A stretch of DNA of 64,000 bases, taken from Botryococcus braunii (taxonomy: Eukaryota > Chlorophyta > Trebouxiophyceae). The stretch is from NCBI GenBank assembly GCA_002005505.1, contig MVGU01001442.1, positions 26,001-90,000 on the forward strand, given 5' to 3'. Of this stretch, positions 1,118 through 64,000 are shown one piece after another (position 1 is the first letter of the stretch; each line of letters begins with the position of its first letter). The translations under genes were made by a program, and so were the position numbers. A model generated the notes under the pieces. That model saw nothing but the letters and a program-made list of their open reading frames with translations. It did no database searches and had not been told where the DNA came from.

Positions 1118-1811
1118 TGTGAAAGGTTATGGGCAATCGGCTTTCCCTGTACAAAGCAGACAGGTCGTCAATAGACGAAGTTACTCCAGCTACAGTCCGT
1201 ACGACTGTCTGCTGAGTGCCACACACAACTGTCGGACAAGACTAGCATCTGGTGATGCCCAGCATCTTTCACAACCAGTTCCGTTACATCATTATCTTGT
1301 ACACAAGCACCGATCAAGCAATCACTAGATAAGGCTCTAGACGGCTACGTTCAAGTACATGCCTATACTCCCTGAAGTCACTGTCCCTTATCTGTTTGAG
1401 TGACTACAGGGTACACTAAGCTTGTTCACTCTCACAATAGCAACAATGATACAACACACACTGCCGCACCGTACCTGTACAAAGCAGACAGGTCGTCAAT
1501 AGACGAAGTTACTCCAGCTACAGTCCGTACGACTGTCTGCTGAGTGCCACACACAACTGTCGGACAAGACTAGCATCTGGTGATGCCCAGCATCTTTCAC
1601 AACCAGTTGGTATTCACTCCGGTGGGGCAGCCTTAAGAGTTCATCCGACAAACGTGTGATCTAGATAGGATTGTACCTTATGTTCGAAAACGTCCAGAAT
1701 CTGCCGTGTCTTAAGGTACCTTATGTTCTCAATGGACCCATATCCTAATAGTGCACACATGAAGATCACTTAAAGCACAAGGCATTCAATAATAATGTTC
1801 AGAACTCAACA
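1118..1811 (-). repeat. LTR, Y type, shared by elements B and A
   Basis: The 694-bp LTR reads TGTTGAG…TTTCACA on the minus strand, with canonical TG…CA ends. A primer site lies to its left (element B) and a polypurine tract to its right (element A side), so it works as 5' LTR for one and 3' LTR for the other. It contains a 134-bp direct repeat at 1147-1280 and 1475-1608. Near its 3' end it holds GCCCATAACC, which is complementary to the adjacent primer site. It is related to the 368-bp LTR of M, which has a single copy of the repeat. Confidence 0.8.
1147..1608 (-). repeat. duplicated block inside Y-type LTR (2 x 134 bp, period 328)
   Basis: Copies at 1475-1608 (first in transcription sense) and 1147-1280 look identical by eye. 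On the minus strand both end in GTACAG; the first is followed by GTACGG and the second by GGAAAG, so the 328 bases between are bounded by GT and AG. Confidence 0.85.
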
Positions 1812-5386: not shown

Positions 5387-5402
5387 TGGTGGGCCCATAA
5401 CC
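5387..5402 (-). promoter_or_regulatory. primer binding site, half initiator-tRNA-Met type (element A)
   Basis: Minus strand GGTTATGGGCCCACCA directly follows the LTR terminus …GTTCA. It complements the anticodon arm of plant initiator tRNA-Met. GCCCAG in the LTR and CTGGGC downstream could pair and enclose the site. Confidence 0.8.
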
Positions 5403-6144
5403 TGAACAATTCTGGGCGTAATGTTCCCTGTATGTCCCGGCACGAAGGGTGTTAAGCTCGGTCGGGTCTCTTGCTGTGTGTCGGAGAGCAAGCAGAGCCC
5501 GACTGTGTGTTGGCACTTGTGGCAACTGATCAGAGATAAGCACCCGGAGTGCTCTTTCAGTCCCAAACAAGTCATTACATTGCTTCTTGCTCTCTCTCAA
5601 CGCCAAGGAATTCAAACTACCTCTTCTAAGCATTGACAGATAGTTCGCATTACCATTGTTCGATGAGCCAAGCATTAGCAACATTCTAATACTCTTATCT
5701 AGACCTCTTCCTAATCAATTTGTCCATGCAAGTTACACTAAGATGCAGCACTTCACCTGTATGTCCCGGCACGAAGGGTGTTAAGCTCGGTCGGGTCTCT
5801 TGCTGTGTGTCGGAGAGCAAGCAGAGCCCGACTGTGTGTTGGCACTTGTGGCAACTGATCAGAGATAAGCACCCGGAGTGCTCTTTCAGTCCCAAACAAG
5901 TGCCGTGCCCTTCATGCCTGCTGCCTATATCCTTTCTCGCAAGGACGCGTCAAATTGCATTACTCTCTCTCTCCAAAATGGAATCGGTCCAGATCAATTA
6001 TGGCAGAACTCTAGAGTTCTGCCATCCATTACTCTACCTCTAAGATTGTTCACATTGATTGCTATAGGGAAGCCTAGCCACTATTACTCTTCTGAGGGAA
6101 AGTCACTAATTTGTTCCTTCACTATTATAACAAGGACCCTAACA
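5403..6144 (-). repeat. 5' LTR of element A, X type (742 bp)
   Basis: Reads TGTTAGGG…GTTCA on the minus strand. It is clearly related to the LTR of element C (shared TGTTATAATAGTGAA-like start region, AGAAGAGTAATAGTGG block and internal repeat). It holds a 145-bp block at 5757-5901 and again at 5428-5572. A TATA-like GGATATAGG at 5924-5932 sits about 29 nt upstream of the first block. The first block ends CATACAG then GTGAAG; the second ends CATACAG then GGAACA. Confidence 0.8.
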
Positions 6145-10944: not shown

Positions 10945-11845
10945 TTTAGCATGATGGCATCATCAAAACAGAATTTGTAGAATTGGAATTGGTATAAAAA
11001 TCCCTGTGACTCACACTCTTCTGAGTAAGTGAACTGTGCCCAAGTGAAGCTTGTATAAGTGGACGAAACACGACCAAGCAAACGGGACAGGAGCTTGATA
11101 AGGGATACTCAAGACTGTTACAATAACAACTAATCTAATGATGTTGCAATTACCTGTGACTCACACTCTTCTGAGTAAGTGAACTGTGCCCAAGTGAAGC
11201 TTGTATAAGTGGACGAAACACGACCAAGCAAACGGGACAGGAGCTTGATAAGGGATACTCAAGACTGACTGATCCCTTTGGGCACTTCCTATTTATACTA
11301 ACTAAGAAGACTATTCATTTATTAGCCTCCTGACAGGTTTGCAACTCCAGATCTTAAAAGAGTACGGGCACGATCAAGTTTGCATGCCTCAGTACTATGC
11401 ACTGGAATTTCAATGTACCTCATGACTCGACATGGTCGTCGATGAATAGTGCGAATCTCGGTCGATGCTAATCTCGAATCTAAGTGACTCGGAACTTTAA
11501 CTCACGACCGATACGAGGCTCGGATCAAGCACCAAGAGCCGCAAGGCTAAAGTCTCACGATCGATGAGATCCGGGCCGAGTGTACCTTACTCGAAACTTG
11601 GCAGAAAACAGGCCGATTTTGTACCATGGCCCCTATAAAACGCTATGAGTGTCTTTTATCATTTAAGTACCATACAGTACGAACACACCCAAGTGAGATA
11701 TGACTGTACCTTATTGTTTATATGTATTATAAGTATTATAAAGCCTTTAAATGATAGATGTGGCTCACAAACATGCTAATATGAAATGACCCAACATGTT
11801 GCACAAATACCTAAGGTATACATGTTAGTGTCCATTTTTCCAACA
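10945..11845 (-). repeat. 3' LTR of element D (901 bp)
   Basis: Minus strand TGTTGGAAAAATGG…CATGCTAAA. The 3' end is AAA, not CA, as fixed by the flanking duplication. It holds the 113-bp duplicated block at 11154-11266 and 11004-11116 and a TATA box TATAAATAGG at 11297-11288. Confidence 0.9.
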
Positions 11846-17625: not shown

Positions 17626-17684
17626 TTTAGCATGATGGCATCATCAAAACAGAATTTGTAGAATTGGAATTGGTATAAAAATCC

Positions 17685-17947
17685 CTGTGACTCACACTCT
17701 TCTGAGTAAGTGAACTGTGCCCAAGTGAAGCTTGTATAAGTGGACGAAACACGACCAAGCAAACGGGACAGGAGCTTGATAAGGGATACTCAAGACTGTT
17801 ACAATAACAACTAATCTAATGATGTTGCAATTACCTGTGACTCACACTCTTCTGAGTAAGTGAACTGTGCCCAAGTGAAGCTTGTATAAGTGGACGAAAC
17901 ACGACCAAGCAAACGGGACAGGAGCTTGATAAGGGATACTCAAGACT
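17685..17947 (-). repeat. duplicated 113-bp block in LTR of element D (period 150)
   Basis: Copies at 17835-17947 (first in sense) and 17685-17797. On the minus strand the first is followed by GTAATTGC and the second by GGATTTTT, each block ending CACAG. The first copy begins about 31 nt downstream of the TATA box at 17978-17969. Confidence 0.9.
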
Positions 17948-17968
17948 GACTGATCCCTTTGGGCACTT

Positions 17969-17978
17969 CCTATTTATA
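17969..17978 (-). promoter_or_regulatory. TATA box in 5' LTR of element D
   Basis: TATAAATAGG on the minus strand, a close match to the plant TATA consensus, about 31 nt upstream of the duplicated block. The same box is in all four D and E LTRs. Confidence 0.7.
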
Positions 17979-18531
17979 CTAACTAAGAAGACTATTCATT
18001 TATTAGCCTCCTGACAGGTTTGCAACTCCAGATCTTAAAAGAGTACGGGCACGATCAAGTTTGCATGCCTGAGTACTATGCACTGGAATTTCAATGTACC
18101 TCATGACTCGACATGGTCGTCGATGAATAGTGCGAATCTCGGTCGATGCTAATCTCGAATCTAAGTGACTCGGAACTTTAACTCACGACCGATACGAGGC
18201 TCGGATCAAGCACCAAGAGCCGCAAGGCTAAAGTCTCACGATCGATGAGATCCGGGCCGAGTGTACCTTACTCGAAACTTGGCAGAAAACAGGCCGATTT
18301 TGTACCATGGCCCCTATAAAACGCTATGAGTGTCTTTTATCATTTAAGTACCATACAGTACGAACACACCCAAGTGAGATATGACTGTACCTTATTGTTT
18401 ATATGTATTATAAGTATTATAAAGCCTTTAAATGATAGATGTGGCTCACAAACATGCTAATATGAAATGACCCAACATGTTGCACAAATACCTAAGGTAT
18501 ACATGTTAGTGTCCATTTTTCTAACAATATG

Positions 18532-24124: not shown

Positions 24125-24974
<850 letters not shown>

Positions 24975-31315: not shown

Positions 31316-31353
<38 letters not shown>

Positions 31354-32363: not shown

Positions 32364-32763
32364 TGTTATAATAGTGAAAGAACATTTTGGTGCCTTTCCC
32401 TCAGAAGAGTAATAGTGGCCAGATCAGCTCCAATTACCAGTGAGAACATTCATTAGAATGAGTAATAGGTGGCAGAACCTAGGAGTTCTGCCAGAACCAA
32501 TCTAGACCAATTTTACGTTGATGAGGGAGGATGAGGTAATCAGACACGCTTTGCTCGAAAGGTTATATGCTCCTGGCTCGAAGGAATGAGGCACTTGATT
32601 GGGACATCAAAAACACTTCGGGTGTTTGTCGTTTAACTGTTGCCAGTCAAGTCACCTCACTCACAGTCGCCACTGCTTGTTAACCGACATACAACAAGAG
32701 TGTCGCCGGGCTAAACACCCTCGTGCCGGGTCATACAGGAAACGCCGAACTCAGAAGTTTACA
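32364..32763 (+). repeat. 5' LTR of element C (400 bp, single block)
   Basis: TGTTATAATAG…AGTTTACA. It has one 146-bp block (32593-32738) followed by GAAACG. A TATATG box lies about 29 nt upstream of the block. Confidence 0.92.
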
Positions 32764-32780
32764 GGTTATGGGCCCACCAC
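32764..32780 (+). promoter_or_regulatory. primer binding site, half initiator-tRNA-Met type (element C)
   Basis: GGTTATGGGCCCACCAC directly follows the LTR. All 17 bases complement the anticodon arm of plant initiator tRNA-Met. CAGAAG in the LTR end and CTTCTG just downstream could pair around it. Confidence 0.85.
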
Positions 32781-32829
32781 TCTTCTGCGGGGGCATGTAA
32801 AATGTATGACTCGGGCAAAGTATTCTGCT

Positions 32830-38648: not shown

Positions 38649-39378
38649 TGTTATAATAGTGAAAGAACATTTTGGTGCCTTTCCCTCAGAAGAGTAATAG
38701 TGGCCAGATCAGCTCCAATTACCAGTGAGAACATTCATTAGAATGAGTAATAGGTGGCAGAACCTAGGAGTTCTGCCAGAACCAATCTAGACCAATTTTA
38801 CGTTGATGAGGGAGGATGAGGTAATCAGACACGCTTTGCTCGAAAGGTTATATGCTCCTGGCTCGAAGGAATGAGGCACTTGATTGGGACATCAAAAGCA
38901 CTTCGGGTGTTTGTCGTTTAACTGTTGCCAGTCAAGTCACCTCACTCACAGTCGCCACTGCTTGTTAACCGACATACAACAAGAGTGTCGCCGGGCTAAA
39001 CACCCTCGTGCCGGGTCATACAGGTAAACTGTTGTCAGGACATTACGTGCACAAGAACAATGGATTAGGAAAGGGTCTAGATAATGTGTATTAGAAAGGT
39101 GCTAATGTTTTAGCTCATCGGACATCGGTAATGCAGACTATCAGTAACTTCGTAGATAGAGTAGTTTGAATTGCTGAGTGATGAGAGAGAGCAACAAGCA
39201 TTGTAAGACTTGATTGGGACATCAAAAGCACTTCGGGTGTTTGTCGTTTAACTGTTGCCAGTCAAGTCACCTCACTCACAGTCGCCACTGCTTGTTAACC
39301 GACATACAACAAGAGTGTCGCCGGGCTAAACACCCTCGTGCCGGGTCATACAGGAAACGCCGAACTCAGAAGTTTACA
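38649..39378 (+). repeat. 3' LTR of element C (730 bp, two blocks)
   Basis: Same ends as the 5' LTR. Blocks of 146 bp at 38878-39023 and 39208-39353. The first is followed by GTAAACTG and the second by GAAACG; both end CATACAG. TATATG at about 38849 is 29 nt upstream of block 1. Confidence 0.92.
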
Positions 39379-41905: not shown

Positions 41906-43424
41906 TTATCCCCCCCTTAGTCCTTTGCATGTCCTCATGCAAACCCACTCGAGGATTTTCACTGAGAAGAACAACCAGAGAAACCGGTAAACTGGACGGC
42001 CCAAACCTCCAACTGCCGTCTGACCCCTGCCGAATTGGTGGTTCATGGAGTCCCCACTTCCAATGTATAATATCTCCAAGTAACACTTCCTTGCCATTTA
42101 TTTTTTTTATGGCTTTTTTAGGACACTAGGTAGACTTGCGTCTAATCTTATTCGGAGAACAAACATGAAGAAATAAACGTTCAAACATGAAAAACAAGTG
42201 TCCCATTTCCCAAGTCCAAGAGAACATAAAAATCTAATCCAAAAACATACAACACAAAAGAATAATTAAAGTGCTTAAGTCCAGAAAGTAGGGAACTTCC
42301 ATGGAGAAGTTCCATGCTCCCAATGAGTCCCGTTCCCGTAATGGATGATCCCAAGTCAACATACTGTACAAATCCACATTAGGTACATATTCCAGTTAAT
42401 GATCAACGACTCGGGTTGCGTTGGCTCTGAACCATGATCCAAAAGGAACAAACAAACAGACAAAGAAACAAAGTCCAACGTTCCCAAAAGTCCCAACAAC
42501 ACAAACTTTCAAGGTCCAAGATTTCAAGAGAGTCCAAGTCCCCCTATTGACATAGACAGTCCAAGACCTGCCAGTCACATAGAAGAATCCCCAATCCCTC
42601 TCCAATTTCCAAGTCCCTTCCCGTCACATAGTCCACCAATCACCTAAAAAGTGCCCAGGATCCACAACTGATTCCTTGTGCTAGCAGGTGTACTCCCCCC
42701 CCCACCTATCCAAAGCGTGCAGACTCCGGGCTGCAACATGCCATGGTGTGTGACATCTGTCCACCCACACCGGAGTGGGCGACCCACTCCCAATCCCATC
42801 CCGAGGGGGTGCACACATTTGCAATCCTACCACCGGCTTGTCTGTGCAGATCCTTGCGTACCCGACAAGGACTCCCTGTTAGAAAAATGGACACTAACAT
42901 GTATACCTTAGGTATTTGTGCAACATGTTGGGTCATTTCATATTAGCATGTTTGTGAGCCACATCTATCATTAAAAGGCTTTATAATACTTATAATACAT
43001 ATAAACAATAAATTATAGTTGTTCTGTACTAGGCTACACTTGTGGTGTGTGGTGCTTCAATGATAAAAGACACTCATAGCGTTTTATAGGGGCCATGGTA
43101 CAAAATCGGCCTGTTTTCTGCCAAGTTTCGAGTAAGGTACACTCGGCCCGGATCTCATCGATCGTGAGACTTTAGCCTTGCGGCTCTTGGTGTTTGATCC
43201 GAGCCTCGTATCGGTCGTGAGTTAAAGTTCCGAGTCACTTAGATTCGAGACTATCTTCGACCGAGATCCGTACTATTCATCGACGACCATGTCGAGTCAT
43301 GAGGTACATTGAAATTCCAGTGCATAGTACTGAGGCATGCAAACTTGATCGTGCCCGTACTCTTTTAAGATCTGGAGTTGCAAACCTGTCAGGAGGCTAA
43401 TAAATGAATAGTCTTCTTAGTTAG

Positions 43425-43434
43425 TATAAATAGG
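43425..43434 (+). promoter_or_regulatory. TATA box in 5' LTR of element E
   Basis: TATAAATAGG, 31 nt upstream of the first duplicated block at 43456, where transcription would be expected to start. Confidence 0.7.
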
Positions 43435-43455
43435 AAGTGCCCAAAGGGATCAGTC

Positions 43456-43719
43456 AGTCTTGAGTATCCCTTATCAAGCTCCTGTCCCGTTTGCTTGGTC
43501 GTGTTTCGTCCACTTCTACAAGCTTCACTTGGGCACAGTTCACTTACTCAGAAGAGTGGGAGTTACAGGTAATTGCAACATCATTAGATTAGTTGTTATT
43601 GTAATAGTCTTGAGTATCCCTTATCAAGCTCCTGTCCCGTTTGCTTGGTCGTGTTTCGTCCACTTCTACAAGCTTCACTTGGGCACAGTTCACTTACTCG
43701 GAAGAGTGTGAAATTACAG
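43456..43719 (+). repeat. duplicated block in LTR of element E (113 and 114 bp, period 150)
   Basis: Copies at 43456-43568 and 43606-43719. The first is followed by GTAATTGC and the second ends ATTACAG then GGATTT, giving a GT…AG interval of 151 bases. The same pair is in the 3' LTR at 47825-47937 and 47975-48088. Confidence 0.9.
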
Positions 43720-43778
43720 GGATTTTTATACCAATTCCAATTCTGCAAATTCTGTTTTGATGATGCCATTATGCTAAA

Positions 43779-44132
43779 TGGTATCGGCGATTAAATCGCT
43801 TATGGTATTATCGTCTCCCGTCGCACGGGATCTTTCTACGTAAAGAAGCCTCGCAGCTTTCTACGTTCTGCTTTTCATAGCACTCTTTTAAAGACTAAAG
43901 AGCACCTAAGCCTGCACGGGGTCTACGCAGACCACCGTGTCAGGTAGAAGGACTCTTGTTGTCTTCTGGTGGGTTACTCTGGTTGGACTTCTCGATTGTC
44001 TAAGCCCTTGTGGCTAAGGCAGTGGGAGAGAAGTTGGCTATTGGTGAAGGCAGCTTTCCTTTGGGAAAGCTGGGGTGGTCGCTGGAGAGCTCTACCTATT
44101 AGAGCTTGTGCTGACTACGTTATTTTCAAGCA
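43779..44132 (+). promoter_or_regulatory. primer binding site, hairpin and leader of element E
   Basis: TGGTATCGGCGA (43779-43790) abuts the LTR. GCGATT-A-AATCGC follows. The leader closely matches D and ends at the ATG at 44133. Confidence 0.75.
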
Positions 44133-47100
44133 ATGAGTGGTACATATACTGTGCCACCCTATGCTAATCCTGAAGGATCTTTTGAAGTACCAATTGTTAT
44201 TGAGGATGATCCATCAAACGTTTATAACAATGACAGTTTCGAACAATCTTATTCTACTCAAGGAGACCCAAGGGGCTACACCTCTAGTGCAGGTGCAGGT
44301 GCCAACAGCTCAACGGAGGACAGTGAAGCTGAGGGGCGCCACGCAGGGGAGGTAAGTGATGAGTATCTATACGGGGATTATGATCACTCAGAGTCTCTTC
44401 CTGCTGATCCTGCTGGTCAACCTCTAGCTGTATCTGCTCCTGCTGTAAGCTCAGGCATCTCTCCTCCTAGTGGTATGCCTTCCAACCTTCCTTTAGATCC
44501 TAGCAGTGTCAGAAGAGCAGTCAGGATTAATCCTGTTCCTGTTTCAAGCGCACCTAGGGTTCTGCGCAGACCTTCACAGTCTGCAGTTTCAGGGTCCAGG
44601 ACACTTACCAGTGGTCCTTTACAAGTACCCGTTTCACAATATCCTGCTGTGACAGTCCAGCCAGCTAGCGTTCCAGTTATTACTAGTGGCGCAATAGTTC
44701 CAGCAACATCAGTAGCTAGTACACAGGCAACTGTTTATCTACCACTGGCTACTGGGGGCATGATCCCCATTACACTACCTGCCTCAACGCTGAACCAAAT
44801 TTCTAATCCAACCTTGGTTCAGCCAGCTAGTGTGCAGGTACCATCCAACTTTGGAGTGTCAACGTCAGCTTCAGCAATTCCAGCTGGAGGCCCTCCTGGT
44901 GGTGGCTACCCATACAGCTCAGGCAGTGGACCTCCTGGAGGTGGGCCACCATACAGTGGGGGTCCCCCTGGAGGAGCAAGCTCGATTTGGCATCCTCCAC
45001 CAGTCTCAGGCAACTACCCGCAATACCCTGTCTATCCGGGCTCTGGTGGGAATGTTCCTGGTGGCTTTGGTGGGGGTGGTCCTGGTGGTCCTGGAGGACC
45101 AGGCGGTCCTGGTGGTCCAGGCGGTCCTGGTGGACCAGGTGGTGGTGGTTGGGGTGGTCCTCCTCATAGTCAGGGGCCACCATATAGTACTGGGCAAGGT
45201 CAATTTCCAAACGTAAGTATTCCTGGTCTGCCCAACATAAATCCAACCACTGGTCCTTCGTTCTCTTCTCATCAGAAGTTAACTCCAAAGATAGAGTTAG
45301 TCAAGCTGAATGATACCAATTGGTTGACATGGACAAAGCAAGTGTATGCTATGCTGTGGGAAATGAATGTCAACTACTGTGTTCATGATGATTATCAGGG
45401 AGCTTATGATGATTTCAAAGCTCAAACCATTATCACTCAAGCATGTACTGAGCAATATTCTGTTCAGATTACTGACTTGACAAGTGCTTACCATATGTGG
45501 AACAAGCTGCTGCAGGTGTTTAACGCTAGAGCAGCAGCTAGGCTGATGAGCCTCCACAGGGAGCAAAAGTTATTTGCCATGAAGCCAGGTGAAAAACCAT
45601 CTGACTACGTGTTAAGGTGCAGGAAAATTGCAAACAACCTCAAATCACTAGGAGAGCAGTGTTCTGAGGTTTGCCAGTGCTCTATGATCATTGAAGGCCT
45701 CACTGAGGAGTATGAGGTAGATAGGCGGTTACAGCTATCTGTTTGCAATAATCTTCCCAATGTTCATCAGTTGCAGCATGTGTTGGAGTTGACATATATG
45801 GACCTTCAAGCCAAGAAACCATATAATACTCCAAATTCTCAACCCTCAAATCCCAAACCCTACAGGAATCAAGGTGGGGGTGACCAGCCTTTCGGTAGGC
45901 AAGGTTTAGGTGGGGCTGATTCTGGTGCCCACCAGGCAGAAGTGCCTCAAAATACTAAACTAGAAAATTCTGGTACAGGTCAACCTGCCTTTCAACAACA
46001 GGGCAGGCCTGTGCTAATTTGTGCCTACTGCAGGAACCCAGGGCACACAAAATCAACGTGCCCCAAGCTTGCAGCTCAGGATAGGAGAGCACATACCAAC
46101 TGTGTGCAGAGAGATACAGTAATCTCTCAACCCTCTCTTCCTGCTTGGCTTATAGATTCTGGTTCCACAGATCACATTTCTCCTACTAGTGATAACATGA
46201 CAGATTATGTCAAATTTGATGTGCCACAACGTGTAATTGTGGCAAATGGTAAATCAGAGGAGATTGTTGGTGAAGGCACTATGAGAGTGTTTCTTGAGTC
46301 AGGCAGCTCTTTGTTCTTGCACAATGTCAAGCATGTTCCTACTAGCAAGAAATATCTCCTTTCTGTGGGCAAGGCATATTTAGATGGTATTAATGTCAAT
46401 ATCATGGGGATAGAGTGTTATCTCACTGATTCAAATGGGTACCACTTAGGCAATGCTGAGCATGCTTTCCCTTATCAGTGGCTGGTGGATTTGGCTCTGC
46501 CAGACAAACAAGTCTCTTTTCATCCTGAGACTAAATTTGTGGAGGCATGCAGTGTTCAAGTTGTTCACAAGGATGTGTGTCTTCATGAAATTGCTGAAGA
46601 TTTGTCTCCTGTCTCTTTAGCCCCTTTGGGCACTGATCCAAGTGTCATTAGGTTTGATAAATTAAATCTTCAGAGGGCTAAGTCCATTGGTCTAGAAAAT
46701 ACTAACGTTGGAGATAAAGGGCTTGGGGCAAATCAGGGCACTGCAGATCCTGAACCTCATGGCCTGGACCCGCGTCCTGTTCAGGATGTTACACAAGTGG
46801 TCATCCAAGAAGGTATTCTATATTTGGCCAACACAGTTAGGCCTAATCTATCATATGCCACTGGTGTTCTCACACGTTTTGCAAATGCTCCTACAAATAC
46901 ACCCCTTGGTGCTGGCATGAATGCTTTGAAGTACCTTGCTGGCATTAAGAATCTGGGGCTTGTGTGGGAGAAAGTCAATAAAGGCTTTGTGGTCTTTGGT
47001 GACTCATACTATGCAGAGGATTCGGATGGGAGAAAGTCCACCTCTGAGGTCAGAGATGAGGTGGAGAATGGAGCAATGGAGCCAAGATATGTGGCTACCA

Positions 47101-47183
47101 GTGAAAATATTGCTGATTTCTTCACCAAGGTGCTTCCAAAAGTCATTTTTGCCAAGCTTAGAGAAATGGCTGGTATCAAATAA
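44133..47183 (+). CDS. gag-protease protein with fused remnants (element E)
   Basis: A 1016-residue open frame. It keeps the low-complexity N-terminus with the GGP run, UBN2 gag, CCHC knuckle CAYCRNPGHTKSTC, and protease WLIDSGSTDHIS near residue 676. Compared with D it has three deletions, near 46575 (integrase), 46815 (RT) and 47044 (RNase H catalytic part), every one in frame, so the same C-terminal residues (NIADFFTKVL) are retained. It can encode particle protein and protease but no polymerase or integrase, so it would depend on D-type elements for mobility. Confidence 0.92.
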   Translation: MSGTYTVPPYANPEGSFEVPIVIEDDPSNVYNNDSFEQSYSTQGDPRGYTSSAGAGANSSTEDSEAEGRHAGEVSDEYLYGDYDHSESLPADPAGQPLAVSAPAVSSGISPPSGMPSNLPLDPSSVRRAVRINPVPVSSAPRVLRRPSQSAVSGSRTLTSGPLQVPVSQYPAVTVQPASVPVITSGAIVPATSVASTQATVYLPLATGGMIPITLPASTLNQISNPTLVQPASVQVPSNFGVSTSASAIPAGGPPGGGYPYSSGSGPPGGGPPYSGGPPGGASSIWHPPPVSGNYPQYPVYPGSGGNVPGGFGGGGPGGPGGPGGPGGPGGPGGPGGGGWGGPPHSQGPPYSTGQGQFPNVSIPGLPNINPTTGPSFSSHQKLTPKIELVKLNDTNWLTWTKQVYAMLWEMNVNYCVHDDYQGAYDDFKAQTIITQACTEQYSVQITDLTSAYHMWNKLLQVFNARAAARLMSLHREQKLFAMKPGEKPSDYVLRCRKIANNLKSLGEQCSEVCQCSMIIEGLTEEYEVDRRLQLSVCNNLPNVHQLQHVLELTYMDLQAKKPYNTPNSQPSNPKPYRNQGGGDQPFGRQGLGGADSGAHQAEVPQNTKLENSGTGQPAFQQQGRPVLICAYCRNPGHTKSTCPKLAAQDRRAHTNCVQRDTVISQPSLPAWLIDSGSTDHISPTSDNMTDYVKFDVPQRVIVANGKSEEIVGEGTMRVFLESGSSLFLHNVKHVPTSKKYLLSVGKAYLDGINVNIMGIECYLTDSNGYHLGNAEHAFPYQWLVDLALPDKQVSFHPETKFVEACSVQVVHKDVCLHEIAEDLSPVSLAPLGTDPSVIRFDKLNLQRAKSIGLENTNVGDKGLGANQGTADPEPHGLDPRPVQDVTQVVIQEGILYLANTVRPNLSYATGVLTRFANAPTNTPLGAGMNALKYLAGIKNLGLVWEKVNKGFVVFGDSYYAEDSDGRKSTSEVRDEVENGAMEPRYVATSENIADFFTKVLPKVIFAKLREMAGIK

Positions 47184-47245
47184 ATTTGTGACTGACTTTC
47201 AAACAATGTTTCTTAGAGATGTTTCTCCCTACACATGAGGGGAGG

Positions 47246-48147
47246 TGTTAGAAAAATGGACACTAACATGTATACCTTAGGTATTTGTGCAACATGTTGG
47301 GTCATTTCATATTAGCATGTTTGTGAGCCACATCTATCATTAAAAGGCTTTATAATACTTATAATACATATAAACAATAAATTATAGTTGTTCTGTACTA
47401 GGCTACACTTGTGGTGTGTGGTGCTTCAATGATAAAAGACACTCATAGCGTTTTATAGGGGCCATGGTACAAAATCGGCCTGTTTTCTGCCAAGTTTCGA
47501 GTAAGGTACACTCGGCCCGGATCTCATCGATCGTGAGACTTTAGCCTTGCGGCTCTTGGTGTTTGATCCGAGCCTCGTATCGGTCGTGAGTTAAAGTTCC
47601 GAGTCACTTAGATTCGAGACTATCTTCGACCGAGATCCGTACTATTCATCGACGACCATGTCGAGTCATGAGGTACATTGAAATTCCAGTGCATAGTACT
47701 GAGGCATGCAAACTTGATCGTGCCCGTACTCTTTTAAGATCTGGAGTTGCAAACCTGTCAGGAGGCTAATAAATGAATAGTCTTCTTAGTTAGTATAAAT
47801 AGGAAGTGCCCAAAGGGATCAGTCAGTCTTGAGTATCCCTTATCAAGCTCCTGTCCCGTTTGCTTGGTCGTGTTTCGTCCACTTCTACAAGCTTCACTTG
47901 GGCACAGTTCACTTACTCAGAAGAGTGTGAGTTACAGGTAATTGCAACATCATTAGATTAGTTGTTATTGTAATAGTCTTGAGTATCCCTTATCAAGCTC
48001 CTGTCCCGTTTGCTTGGTCGTGTTTCGTCCACTTCTACAAGCTTCACTTGGGCACAGTTCACTTACTCGGAAGAGTGTGAAATTACAGGGATTTTTATAC
48101 CAATTCCAATTCTGCAAATTCTGTTTTGATGATGCCATTATGCTAAA
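47246..48147 (+). repeat. 3' LTR of element E (902 bp)
   Basis: Matches the 5' LTR. Preceded by the polypurine tract ATGAGGGGAGG (47235-47245). TATA box at 47794-47803. Confidence 0.92.
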
Positions 48148-50979: not shown

Positions 50980-51347
50980 TGTTAGGTTATGGGCATTCGG
51001 CATCACCTGTAAGCAAGCAGACAGGTCGTAAGTTCGTGCCACTCCAGCTACCGTCCTTGACGACTGTGTGCTCTTTAGACACATGGAACTGCATGGACAA
51101 GACTGGCATCCTTATGTGCCCAGTATCTTTCCAAACCAGTTGCTCGACTATGCGGTGATCGCAGCTTTAATAGTCCTTTCACACTAACGCGTAATCTAGA
51201 TCAGATTGTACCTTATGTTCGAAATAGACCTCATCCGAACGTGTCTCGAGGTACCTTATGTGGATAGTGGACCCGTATCCTAATAATGTAAATTTGAAGA
51301 TCACCTAAAGCACAAGGCATTCTATAATGTATGTTCACAACTCAACA
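50980..51347 (-). repeat. 3' LTR of M1 (368 bp)
   Basis: Minus strand TGTTGAGTTGTG…CCTAACA. One block (51007-51142) homologous to the duplicated block of the Y-type LTR, followed by GTGATG. A TATTAAA box at 51172-51166 is about 28 nt upstream of the block. Confidence 0.9.
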
Positions 51348-51893: not shown

Positions 51894-53228
51894 GTATACC
51901 GCAGTAATACCTCTGACAACAATTGAAGACTAGTCTCCTCGACATGTTCATATGAATTTAATACGTACCCGTCATGATGATCATGACAGCTAAACATACA
52001 TGTAAACTCAAAATCCATCCCCTCACTTTCAAAGCCCCCCATACATTTCAACTGACCCTTTAGTCCGCGGCGCGACATCGAAACTAGTTGCGACCGTGAT
52101 TTCCTGTGTGAGTTCCCTTTCTATCACCATATGGAGGCCAATACTTGCACAACCAACATGACCCAGGATTTACTGCATGAGTACTTTCAAGTTGTCTTGC
52201 CCTAACTCACATTGCTTCCCCTGGAGTGCTATTACATGTTTCACGGTCCGTCGATCAAATTATATTTCTCCAACCTCTATACTTTTATTTGGTTAAGTAT
52301 TTGAAGCATCAAGACTAAACAGACACCGTTACAAACGACCTGCACTCAAAAACGCATCTAACAACTATGTTTCATGTTATATAACCTAGAGTCTGGATAT
52401 CAACGACTTTCATCTGGAATTTTTCAAGATTTCTCACATATGGCCACAACTCCCAAACTTGGCTCTGTGGCTATCTGTAAGAACTCTCTCTAGCTTTCAT
52501 TGATTTTACTGGCTGTCCCGGTCTAGCTTTCTAACGTGAGGGTGCACCGATGCATCAAGGCCTTAGGATTAAATTGTCTGTAACTGACAATTCTACCACC
52601 CAAAGCTCACTTGTATTGGTCACAATGATGGTAGCTCACCTCTACCCTATTTATACACATAACCCTTAAAAAAGTCTCATCTATACACCATCAGTACTAT
52701 GATCAGTCTCTAAGGGCGTTGCTGCAACAATACACATGACTTACAAAGTCACCAACGCATACGTGTGTTGGGTCAAATATCACCATCCTCTGCTTGAGGA
52801 GCTAGGGTCATCACAGGTACCTATCAGTAACCTCATGTTGAGCACAATAGATCCTCTTCATCATCACTACTAGACATTAGGCTACTCAGCATCCCAATGC
52901 GCGAGAAACGCAACGCGCGCAACGATAACTGATGAGCTTCCCCTGACCACATTATGTCACAGATTAACCCAAAACTCTTCAAATTAATTCATTGTCCTCA
53001 GAAACCAATTCTTTTCCATGTCAATATCAGAATTAGCTTTACATGTTAGCAATTTTTGGTGTTCATAGTTTGGCCCATCTAACACTCATATCCTTTGTGT
53101 AGCCCGCACCATGGATTAAGACTAACTTGCAGCTATTTCTACCCCAACTGCACCTCTTTGCATTCCTAGAGTCATTCATGTATACACGTATATCACCTTA
53201 AACACTCTGGGTCAACTACCATGCATTG
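51894..53228. other. non-coding internal DNA of M1, first part
   Basis: No retroelement coding similarity and no convincing frame. It is AT-rich compared with neighbouring elements and repeated in M2 (55831-56739 and from 62925). CTGCT at 52790-52794 is the empty site for element N. Confidence 0.6.
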
Positions 53229-53660
53229 CAACGATAAAATTGTAATCTTCTGGTACCCACAACTCACTCCTGGTCAGCCCAAAACCTTTCAACACCAGGT
53301 CATTCATGTATATCACCTTAAACATTCTGGGTCAATTACCCTATGGTCCATGCCAGACTGTAGGTCAGGGCGTGAAGCGCATGCATTGCGCAACGATACA
53401 ATTGTAATCTTGTGGTACCCACAACTCACTCTTGGTCAGCCCAAAAACTTTCAACACCAGGTCATTGATGTATATCCCCTTAAACATTCTGGGTCAATTA
53501 CTCTATGGTCCATGCCAGACTGTAGGTCAGGGTGTGAAGCGCATGCATTGCGCAACGATAAAATTGTAATCTTCTGGTACCCACAACTCACTCCTGGTCA
53601 ATCCAAAAACTTTCAACACCAAGTCAAAAAAACCTCAGCATACCTTAGGGATTTTCACAA
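53229..53660. repeat. 162-bp tandem repeat, about 2.6 copies (M1)
   Basis: Units begin at 53229, 53391 and 53553 (CAACGATAMAATTGTAATCT…). The period is a multiple of three, so an open frame crosses it, but M2 breaks that frame with a one-base loss. Confidence 0.9.
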
Positions 53661-56739: not shown

Positions 56740-57188
56740 TGTAGTGAGATGCCGCGTCAGCGCGACGCGTCTCACGTAGGATGTGCGCGTAGTTCATGTT
56801 TCTTCGTGCCCTTTGGGATACGAGTAGATCTCGTTGTCCTTGTGTGTAGGAAAATGACTGTAATATCCTAGTGGGTCTCCTCTCGTCATCCATATCGTTA
56901 TGCTCGCGAGAGCATCTCGTAGAGGGACGACGTAGCCGGATCCGCGCATAGGTGGACTAGGAACTCGGGTGGTTATCATTGTCTTTGGGTTTTCTGTTAC
57001 AAGGGAGGCATCTAGAAATATCTTTATTGGTCATAATATATTGTTCTTTGGAGACTCGGACGACCTGCGTGAGGAGGGCTGCGAACTTGTAACGGATTGG
57101 AACTTCGATTTCTACCTTCGGTGTCACCCTTGCCTGATACCCTTGCTTAGCTTGTTATAAATCTTAGTTCACGTCTCACTTCGTTAAA
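56740..57188 (+). repeat. 5' LTR of element N (449 bp)
   Basis: TGTAGTGAGATGCC…TTCGTTAAA; ends in AAA as confirmed by the empty site. Confidence 0.92.
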
Positions 57189-62929: not shown

Positions 62930-64000
62930 TGAGGAGCTAGGGTCATCACAGGTACCTATCAGTAACCTCATGTTGAGCACAATAGATCCTCTTCATCATC
63001 ACTACTAGACATTAGGCTACTCAGCATCCAAATGCGCGAGAAACGCAACGCGCGCACGCGCGCAACGATAACTGATGAGCTTCCCCTGACCACATTATGT
63101 CACAGATTAACCCAAAACTCTTAAAATTAATTCATTGTCCTCAGAAACCAATTCTTTTCCATGTCAATATCAGAATTAGCTTTACATGTTAGCAATTTTT
63201 GGTGTTCATAGTTTGGCCCATCTAACACTCATATCCTTTGTGTAGCCCGCACCATGGATTAAGACTAACTTGCAGCTATTTCTACCCCAACTGCACCTCT
63301 TTGCATTCCTAGAGTCATTCATGTATATCACCTTAAACACTCTGGGTCAACTACCATGCATTGCAACGATAAAATTGTAATCTTCTGGTACCCACAACTC
63401 ACTCCTGGTCAGCCCAAAACCTTTCAACACCAGGTCATTCATGTATATCACCTTAAACATTCTGGGTCAATTACCCTATGGTCCATGCCAGACTGTAGGT
63501 CAGGGCGTGAAGCGCATGCATTGCGCAACGATACAATTGTAATCTTGTGGTACCCACAACTCACTCTTGGTCAGCCCAAAAACTTTCAACACCAGGTCAT
63601 TGATGTATATCCCTTAAACATTCTGGGTCAATTACTCTATGGTCCATGCCAGACTGTAGGTCAGGGTGTGAAGCGCATACATTGCGCAACGATAAAATTG
63701 TAATCTTCTGGTACCCACAACTCACTCCTGGTCAACCCAAAAACTTTCAACACCAAGTCAAAAAAACCTCAGCATACCTTAGGGATTTTCACAACACCAC
63801 ATACACAGACAGACATAGAGAGGTCTCACAAGCCACACTGGACCCATATATGACCCTATGTAGGACCACTCAAGGTTTGAAAACCGCGTTGGCCACACAA
63901 CATCAGCCACACATCGCATTGACTACACATCATTGACCAGACACAACCAGTCAATGTCTAGTTTCACACTCTGGAAAACATGGAAGGAATGCCAGGCACA
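62930..64000. other. M2 internal DNA after element N
   Basis: Copy of about 52795-53860, including the 162-bp tandem repeat (units near 63365, 63527 and 63688). A one-base loss near 63612 breaks the frame seen in M1. No coding function is supported. Confidence 0.75.

Follow-up and report, generated by a model that had tools for sequence, protein, structure and literature searches.

Copia-type retrotransposons of Botryococcus braunii very probably hold a spliceosomal intron within their LTRs, one that would be rebuilt in each cycle by reverse transcription of spliced RNA. The decisive evidence of the analysis, as read from genomic DNA, is the loss of introns from one of two repeated LTR blocks in two families, T and V.

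Results

Two-block LTRs in the window

The window, the whole stretch of 64,000 bp that was analyzed, corresponds to G000:C451:26001-90000 of a 176 Mb host genome in 989 contigs. It holds the copia-type elements D, E, C, A, and Y, whose LTRs have the order U3-block 1 (B1)-spacer (S)-block 2 (B2)-tail. The blocks were located by self-comparison of the window and direct reading of the letters, which recovered the duplications proposed for D/E, C, A, and Y by an earlier sequence-only reading of this DNA. The features are given below, with a slash at block borders.

42877..43778, plus strand: D 5' LTR, U3-B1-S-B2-tail, 99.9% identical to 47246-48147
43425..43432, plus strand: D TATA-like box TATAAATA, 31 nt upstream of block 1
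43456..43568, plus strand: D block 1, 113 bp, predicted exon 1; first base A after C; end TTACAG/GT
43569..43605, plus strand: D spacer, predicted intron start GTAATTG...; ends in TTGTAA plus T, poly(A)-signal-like
43606..43719, plus strand: D block 2, 114 bp, 3' part of the predicted intron; end TTACAG/GG
43779..43790, plus strand: D probable primer binding site
47246-48147, plus strand: D 3' LTR, B1-S-B2 at 47825..48088 (self-comparison)
17626-18526, minus strand: E 5' LTR; B1 17947-17835, S 17834-17798, B2 17797-17685
10945-11845, minus strand: E 3' LTR, B1-S-B2 at 11004..11266 (self-comparison)
32364..32763, plus strand: C 5' LTR, one block (32593-32738) joined straight to the tail
32764..32785, plus strand: C probable primer binding site
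38649..39378, plus strand: C 3' LTR; B1 38878-39023, S 39024-39207, B2 39208-39353 (146 bp), tail 39354-39378
38849, plus strand: box TATATG of the C 3' LTR, whose spacer reads GTAAAC...TTGTAAG
5402..6132, minus strand: A 5' LTR; B1 5901-5757, S 5756-5573 (GTGAAG...ATGTAATG), B2 5572-5428 (145 bp)
5930, minus strand: A box ATATAG
1118..1811, minus strand: Y 5' LTR, inserted in A; B1 1608-1475, S 1474-1281 (GTACGG...ATGTAACGG), B2 1280-1147; blocks 134 bp
50980..51347, minus strand: M LTR, one block (51141-51007), block edges read by eye
56740..57188, plus strand: 5' LTR of the Gypsy element W, without internal duplication (contrast case)

Several details of the earlier reading could be adjusted. 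The duplication ascribed to C is present in its 3' LTR, whereas its 5' LTR has a single block; the single block of M was found as described. Y has its two 134-bp blocks, but the weak box proposed for it was not recovered by our motif list. In D, C, and A, block 1 does start downstream of a TATA-like box, at 29-31 nt. As to the claim that D/E blocks are unrelated to those of the other families, A and C show no match to D/E or Y, but are related to each other (77%).

Element D (42877-48147) is seemingly an internally deleted derivative sharing LTRs with E, also seen on contigs C5 and C46. Judged by eye, its 1022-aa open frame is without most of the integrase and reverse transcriptase (RT). The LTR spacing of about 5.2 kb found in D recurs elsewhere, against 6.7 kb in others.

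Copia membership and primer binding sites

The Copia-type RT profile (RVT_2) matched C (3.6e-61) and E (1.1e-68), and the E, T, and F1805 elements were among the PF07727 places. Domains in E follow the order rve 883-977 (below the Pfam curated cut-off), SH3_retrovirus 1038-1106, and RVT_2 1314-1559, placing the integrase N-terminal to the RT. By RT sequence and domain order, the elements are assigned to Ty1/copia (Pseudoviridae). A protein search returned relatives without informative names.

The probable primer binding site of D complements the 3' end, plus CCA, of a host tRNA-Met with the arm GTGGGCCCATAACCCAC, presumably of the initiator type; eight gene letters of this D/E site were matched by script, and the rest, including CCA, was read by eye. 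In C, the 22 nt of the probable site would pair with that half of this tRNA which carries the anticodon side, resembling the site of copia, which uses a half-tRNA primer. Y has a 14-nt match to the host tRNA-Met. For A, no match to tRNA-Met was found in the slice compared; the motif is nonetheless readable in the A sequence. The elements depart from conventional LTR anatomy, in which U3, R, and U5 are contiguous and R runs from the transcription start: the distance between the putative start (block 1) and the border defined by reverse transcription (block 2) ranges from 150 nt in D to about 570 nt in V.

Occurrence of the layout

A survey of LTR families for internal duplications, as the earlier reading had proposed, showed two blocks in the majority of stretches, more often than by chance. 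Among the first eight stretches taken at a preset distance downstream of Copia RTs, seven had the layout and one had a single block. The layout was found in 20 of 21 stretches of the young family F1805 (the other, L089, being single-block), in 20 of 22 stretches of the A/C lineage (one single-block, L097, and one without the LTR), and in all six further stretches, two of which were chosen as relatives of a family already found. Most elements beyond D/E were chosen for long open frames, so the sample is skewed to young copies. The D/E copies were collected with a query holding both blocks, so single-block copies are not countable in that set. For Gypsy, no repeat of at least 40 bases was present in seven of eight stretches downstream of Gypsy RTs, whose LTRs possibly lie outside those stretches; the repeat in the eighth (L147) is the 5' LTR of a copia-type V element in the opposite orientation. 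The firm Gypsy negative for internal duplication is W in the window only.

The motif list found a TATA-like box around position -30 relative to block 1 in only 7 of the 11 representatives scanned, which counts against the cycle proposed below. Transcription might instead start from block 2 through a promoter in B1 or S, with block 1 a relic or promoter element. Such a start would agree with the position of the join scar described below, which sits at block 2, the site of the conventional U3/R border. The boxes, however, are placed before block 1, and in D, C, and F1805 reading by eye showed none similarly spaced from block 2; a start at block 2 would also leave the spliced-copy nature of block 2 and the within-copy identity of the blocks unexplained. 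We consider it extremely unlikely.

Intron-like borders and a candidate poly(A) signal

Borders were compared in 15 LTR representatives, 11 of one scan together with L122b, L123, T, and V, whose blocks form nine clusters without detectable mutual similarity. In 15 of 15, from all nine clusters, block 1 ends and the spacer starts as AG/GT, and block 2 ends in AG before the tail. TGTAA begins 6-10 nt upstream of block 2 in every representative. Spacer and block 2 together therefore read as a GT...AG intron holding a poly(A) site, and we infer that this segment is removed as an intron from the transcript of the 5' LTR. As points against the model, some donors of this intron are not strong by consensus, namely GTACGG (Y), GTATCC (L044 and L122b), and GTGTGT (L041), and in single copies the donor (L104, GG) or the acceptor (L080) has been lost.

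Accounts in PMC3946568 and PMC3439250 place TGTAA about 17 nt ahead of cleavage in Chlorella variabilis and about 14 nt ahead in Chlamydomonas, respectively. By analogy, the spacer TGTAA is a candidate green-algal poly(A) signal, its signal role being known from Chlorella and Chlamydomonas rather than from genes of this genome. Because of the position of TGTAA here and the distance of about 17 nt given for C. variabilis (PMC3946568), the true R is predicted to be just the first 7-11 nt or so of the block. The proposal that the repeated block is a duplicated R region was thus not borne out; it reads as the spliced 5' exon or exons of the transcript, as block 2 of T and V, lacking introns, indicates.

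The same borders bear on the idea that selection maintains the duplication as an RNA or DNA element (an enhancer, or a packaging or dimer signal), the intron-like borders being coincidental. Selection of this kind might be expected from a layout that occurs in unrelated families. Yet the block sequences themselves are unrelated across clusters, while the placement of AG/GT, AG, and TGTAA agrees in nine of nine; T and V also disfavor the idea, and we give it a nearly negligible probability. The earlier suggestions that unrelated families share the layout, that it begins at the expected transcription start, and that a shared mechanism underlies it are upheld.

Block 2 of families T and V as a spliced copy

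In family T (at C500), the two blocks do not align throughout, since block 1 contains two extra stretches of 105 and 109 bp that read GTAAG...CAG. Block 2 has the sequence of block 1 minus both stretches, cut at the exon junctions, in 23 of 23 LTRs; one of these, L144, has a single substitution at one block-2 junction. The block 1 introns begin with GT in 23/23 copies for both and end with AG in 22/23 and 23/23. Family V, unrelated to T, has one extra intron (GTACGT...AG) in block 1 of all 16 copies, with the terminal AG kept in 15, and joined exons in block 2 of all 16. The sequences thus show that the internal introns of T and V are spliced, being of the GT-AG spliceosomal type and precisely removed in the cDNA copy. 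As the introns are missing from block 2 only, and at exon junctions, block 2 is therefore a spliced cDNA copy of block 1.

A plain internal duplication would have R consist of B1-S-B2 or of B1 alone in an unspliced RNA, with block identity maintained by slippage or gene conversion. Single-block LTRs, as repeat slippage would yield, do exist: the C 5' LTR, M, L043, L089 (F1805), and L097/L170. Duplication, however, offers no means to delete GT-AG introns from block 2 only, at exon junctions, and does not predict a variable base before block 2 against a fixed base before block 1. A three-block LTR was found in none of 39 D/E LTRs, the stretches of the other sets being mostly too short to reveal one. 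This explanation is in our judgment very unlikely and was rejected, as were a duplicated R, a promoter located in the spacer, and a chance repeat.

T and V also supply a point that counts against reverse transcription of spliced RNA as the source of block 2. The model requires that, at the RNA 3' end, the internal introns of block 1 escape splicing. A possible ground for their retention is that block 1 would be part of a cap-proximal first exon at the 5' end, and that an over-long exon would precede the 3' copy.

Repeated rewriting of block 2

Sub-lineage variants occur in both blocks of the same copy. A one-time origin would let the blocks drift apart, and because the variants instead co-occur per copy, block 2 appears to have been rewritten repeatedly. 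Differences between a copy's own B1 and B2 were compared with those after shuffling of partners 5000 times. For D/E, they numbered 29 against a shuffled mean of 62.5 (0/5000 shuffles as low), and 29 against 56.2 among 33 distinct haplotypes (0/5000). The values were 72 against 366 for T (0/5000), 5 against 436 for the A/C lineage (0/5000), and 6 against 13.4 for F1805 (1/5000). L064, which contains N, was left out of the shuffles and of the column-diversity and base-before-block analyses below.

In diversity, the base just before block 2 ranks first among 374 columns in the 38 D/E copies and first among 876 columns in a ten-copy subgroup of T (the remaining 13 of 23 T copies being left out), and in a subset of 12 A/C copies it shares the top rank with two further columns. 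It was not top-ranked in the 14-copy A/C set or the 6-copy A set, it was missing from the top ten columns of the V subgroup (from which L158, L159, and L147 were left out), and in F1805 it varied in just 1 of 20 copies. The D/E letters after TTGTA are AT (12), AC (12), AA (10), ACA (4), and A (1). By contrast, block 1 is preceded by C in 38/38 D/E copies and 17/18 A/C copies. L104 and L111 were left out of one subset in the column-diversity and base-before-block analyses.

Where two LTRs could be assigned to one element by their spacing on the contig, the scar was alike in 12 of 13 pairs, compared with 0.27 expected per pair; two of the pairs share one LTR. This agreement indicates that the scar is set during copying of the element. 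A variable base before block 2 is as expected for the joining site of a cDNA end. Such a scar would arise if strong-stop DNA ended in non-templated or cap-derived bases, as is known of other reverse transcriptases. Three footprints, the spliced block 2, the within-copy identity, and the join scar, thus support the rewriting of block 2.

Three equally spaced LTRs in a row were seen at G000:C781 and C46 (L059, L069, L075, L065, and L066), where elements seem to share LTRs in tandem.

Single-block LTRs and misfits

L097 and L170 (G000:C162), paired by distance, are both single-block, and their element has an open frame of 1757 aa. As both LTRs are alike in this respect, single-block LTRs probably can arise at reverse transcription; transfer of strong-stop DNA to the longer match in block 1 would yield one. 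The C element, with one single-block and one two-block LTR, rather suggests a later deletion.

Both LTRs of the D copy in the window show 3-4 differences between their blocks, at the 3' end of the blocks. These are not expected if block 2 was copied strictly from the element's own block 1, and a second co-packaged RNA might account for them. Other misfits of block identity are L065/L066 and L136, with 30 differences in L136.

Discussion

Proposed replication cycle

Transcription would start at the first base of block 1, about 30 nt past the TATA-like box. From the 5' LTR transcript, S and block 2 would be spliced out between the GT at the start of S and the AG at the end of block 2, giving a leader in which block 1 is joined to the U5 tail and followed by the primer site; in T and V, the one or two extra introns inside block 1 would be removed as well. 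In the 3' LTR, the TGTAA at the end of S would direct cleavage of the RNA about 7-11 nt inside block 2. The 3' copy of the intron would survive, because this cut lies before the intron acceptor. The spliced leader would be copied into minus strong-stop DNA (tail-block), which would then pair through an R of about 10 nt at the RNA 3' end and be extended into S, block 1, and U3. This would yield an LTR that is once more U3-B1-S-B2-tail, with its block 2 freshly copied from a spliced block 1.

As a by-product, splicing would strip the 5' poly(A) signal from the genomic RNA, so that one and the same LTR could start transcripts as the 5' copy and stop them as the 3' copy. On balance, we favor regarding this as an undescribed mode of LTR replication, in which the genomic RNA must be spliced, the poly(A) site lies in a self-restoring intron that silences the 5' signal while the identical 3' one is used, and single-block LTRs, by transfer to block 1, are failures.

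Comparison with known systems

With Ty1/copia (Pseudoviridae) the elements share an RVT_2 RT, an integrase before the RT, LTRs, and tRNA-Met primer sites, including a copia-like half-tRNA site. They differ in that the LTR would contain an intron together with a copy of the spliced 5' exons, and in that the putative start is far upstream of the U3/R border defined by reverse transcription.

The closest precedents found are the foamy-virus donor in R and the introns of Ogre and EVADE. A splice donor is carried in R by HTLV and BLV. In foamy viruses likewise, a donor lies in R, inside the LTR near the start site, as it does here (PMC3185757). The account in PMC3185757 describes neither an acceptor within the LTR nor an intron returning in each cycle. 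The foamy-virus type pairs its donor in R with acceptors outside the LTR. In the present LTRs, an acceptor matching the block-1 donor is found within the same LTR, at the end of block 2, and acceptors elsewhere might be used too.

Retrotransposition is expected to erase introns. The genome analyzed here appears to record the opposite, an intron restored by a retrotransposon in each cycle and placed to avoid loss. The plant elements Ogre and EVADE are described in PMC12786077 as LTR retrotransposons with functional introns, in which alternative splicing gives subgenomic RNAs, while the present model casts the spliced RNA as the genome that is reverse transcribed; the account in PMC12786077 holds neither an LTR-contained intron nor renewal of one. 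In yeast TyH3 with an inserted intron, the RNA intermediate is spliced, as proposed here, and the intron disappears on retrotransposition (PMC12786077). Here it would return, since the RNA 3' end from which the LTR is rebuilt would still be unspliced.

An LTR-contained intron renewed in each cycle was not found in the literature searched, a scope outside which most subscription papers fall. The elements are copia by membership, and we could not match their LTR anatomy and replication step to any described system found. If correct, the cycle offers a natural answer to the old question of how two identical LTRs can serve, one for the initiation and the other for the termination of transcripts. 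First-strand transfer, normally invisible, would become legible in genomic DNA as join scars and spliced block 2 copies, and LTR-internal repeats could be fossils of spliced cDNA from which transcription starts and splice sites can be mapped with no need of RNA data.

Other features of the window and host genome

The host genome encodes light-harvesting proteins; one Lhca3 fragment is nearest to PDB 9kqp and 6zzx, the latter of which we take to be a Chlorella ohadii structure, so that the host looks trebouxiophyte-like. Within a duplicated stretch of the window, a tandem repeat of about 162 bp (2.5 copies) occurs at 53220-53626 and 63363-63760, and W interrupts the second copy of that stretch. 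A run of 36 A at 31317-31352 lies in a Gypsy pol frame and reads as poly-phenylalanine on the minus strand, and a (TC)67 microsatellite occupies 24815-24948.
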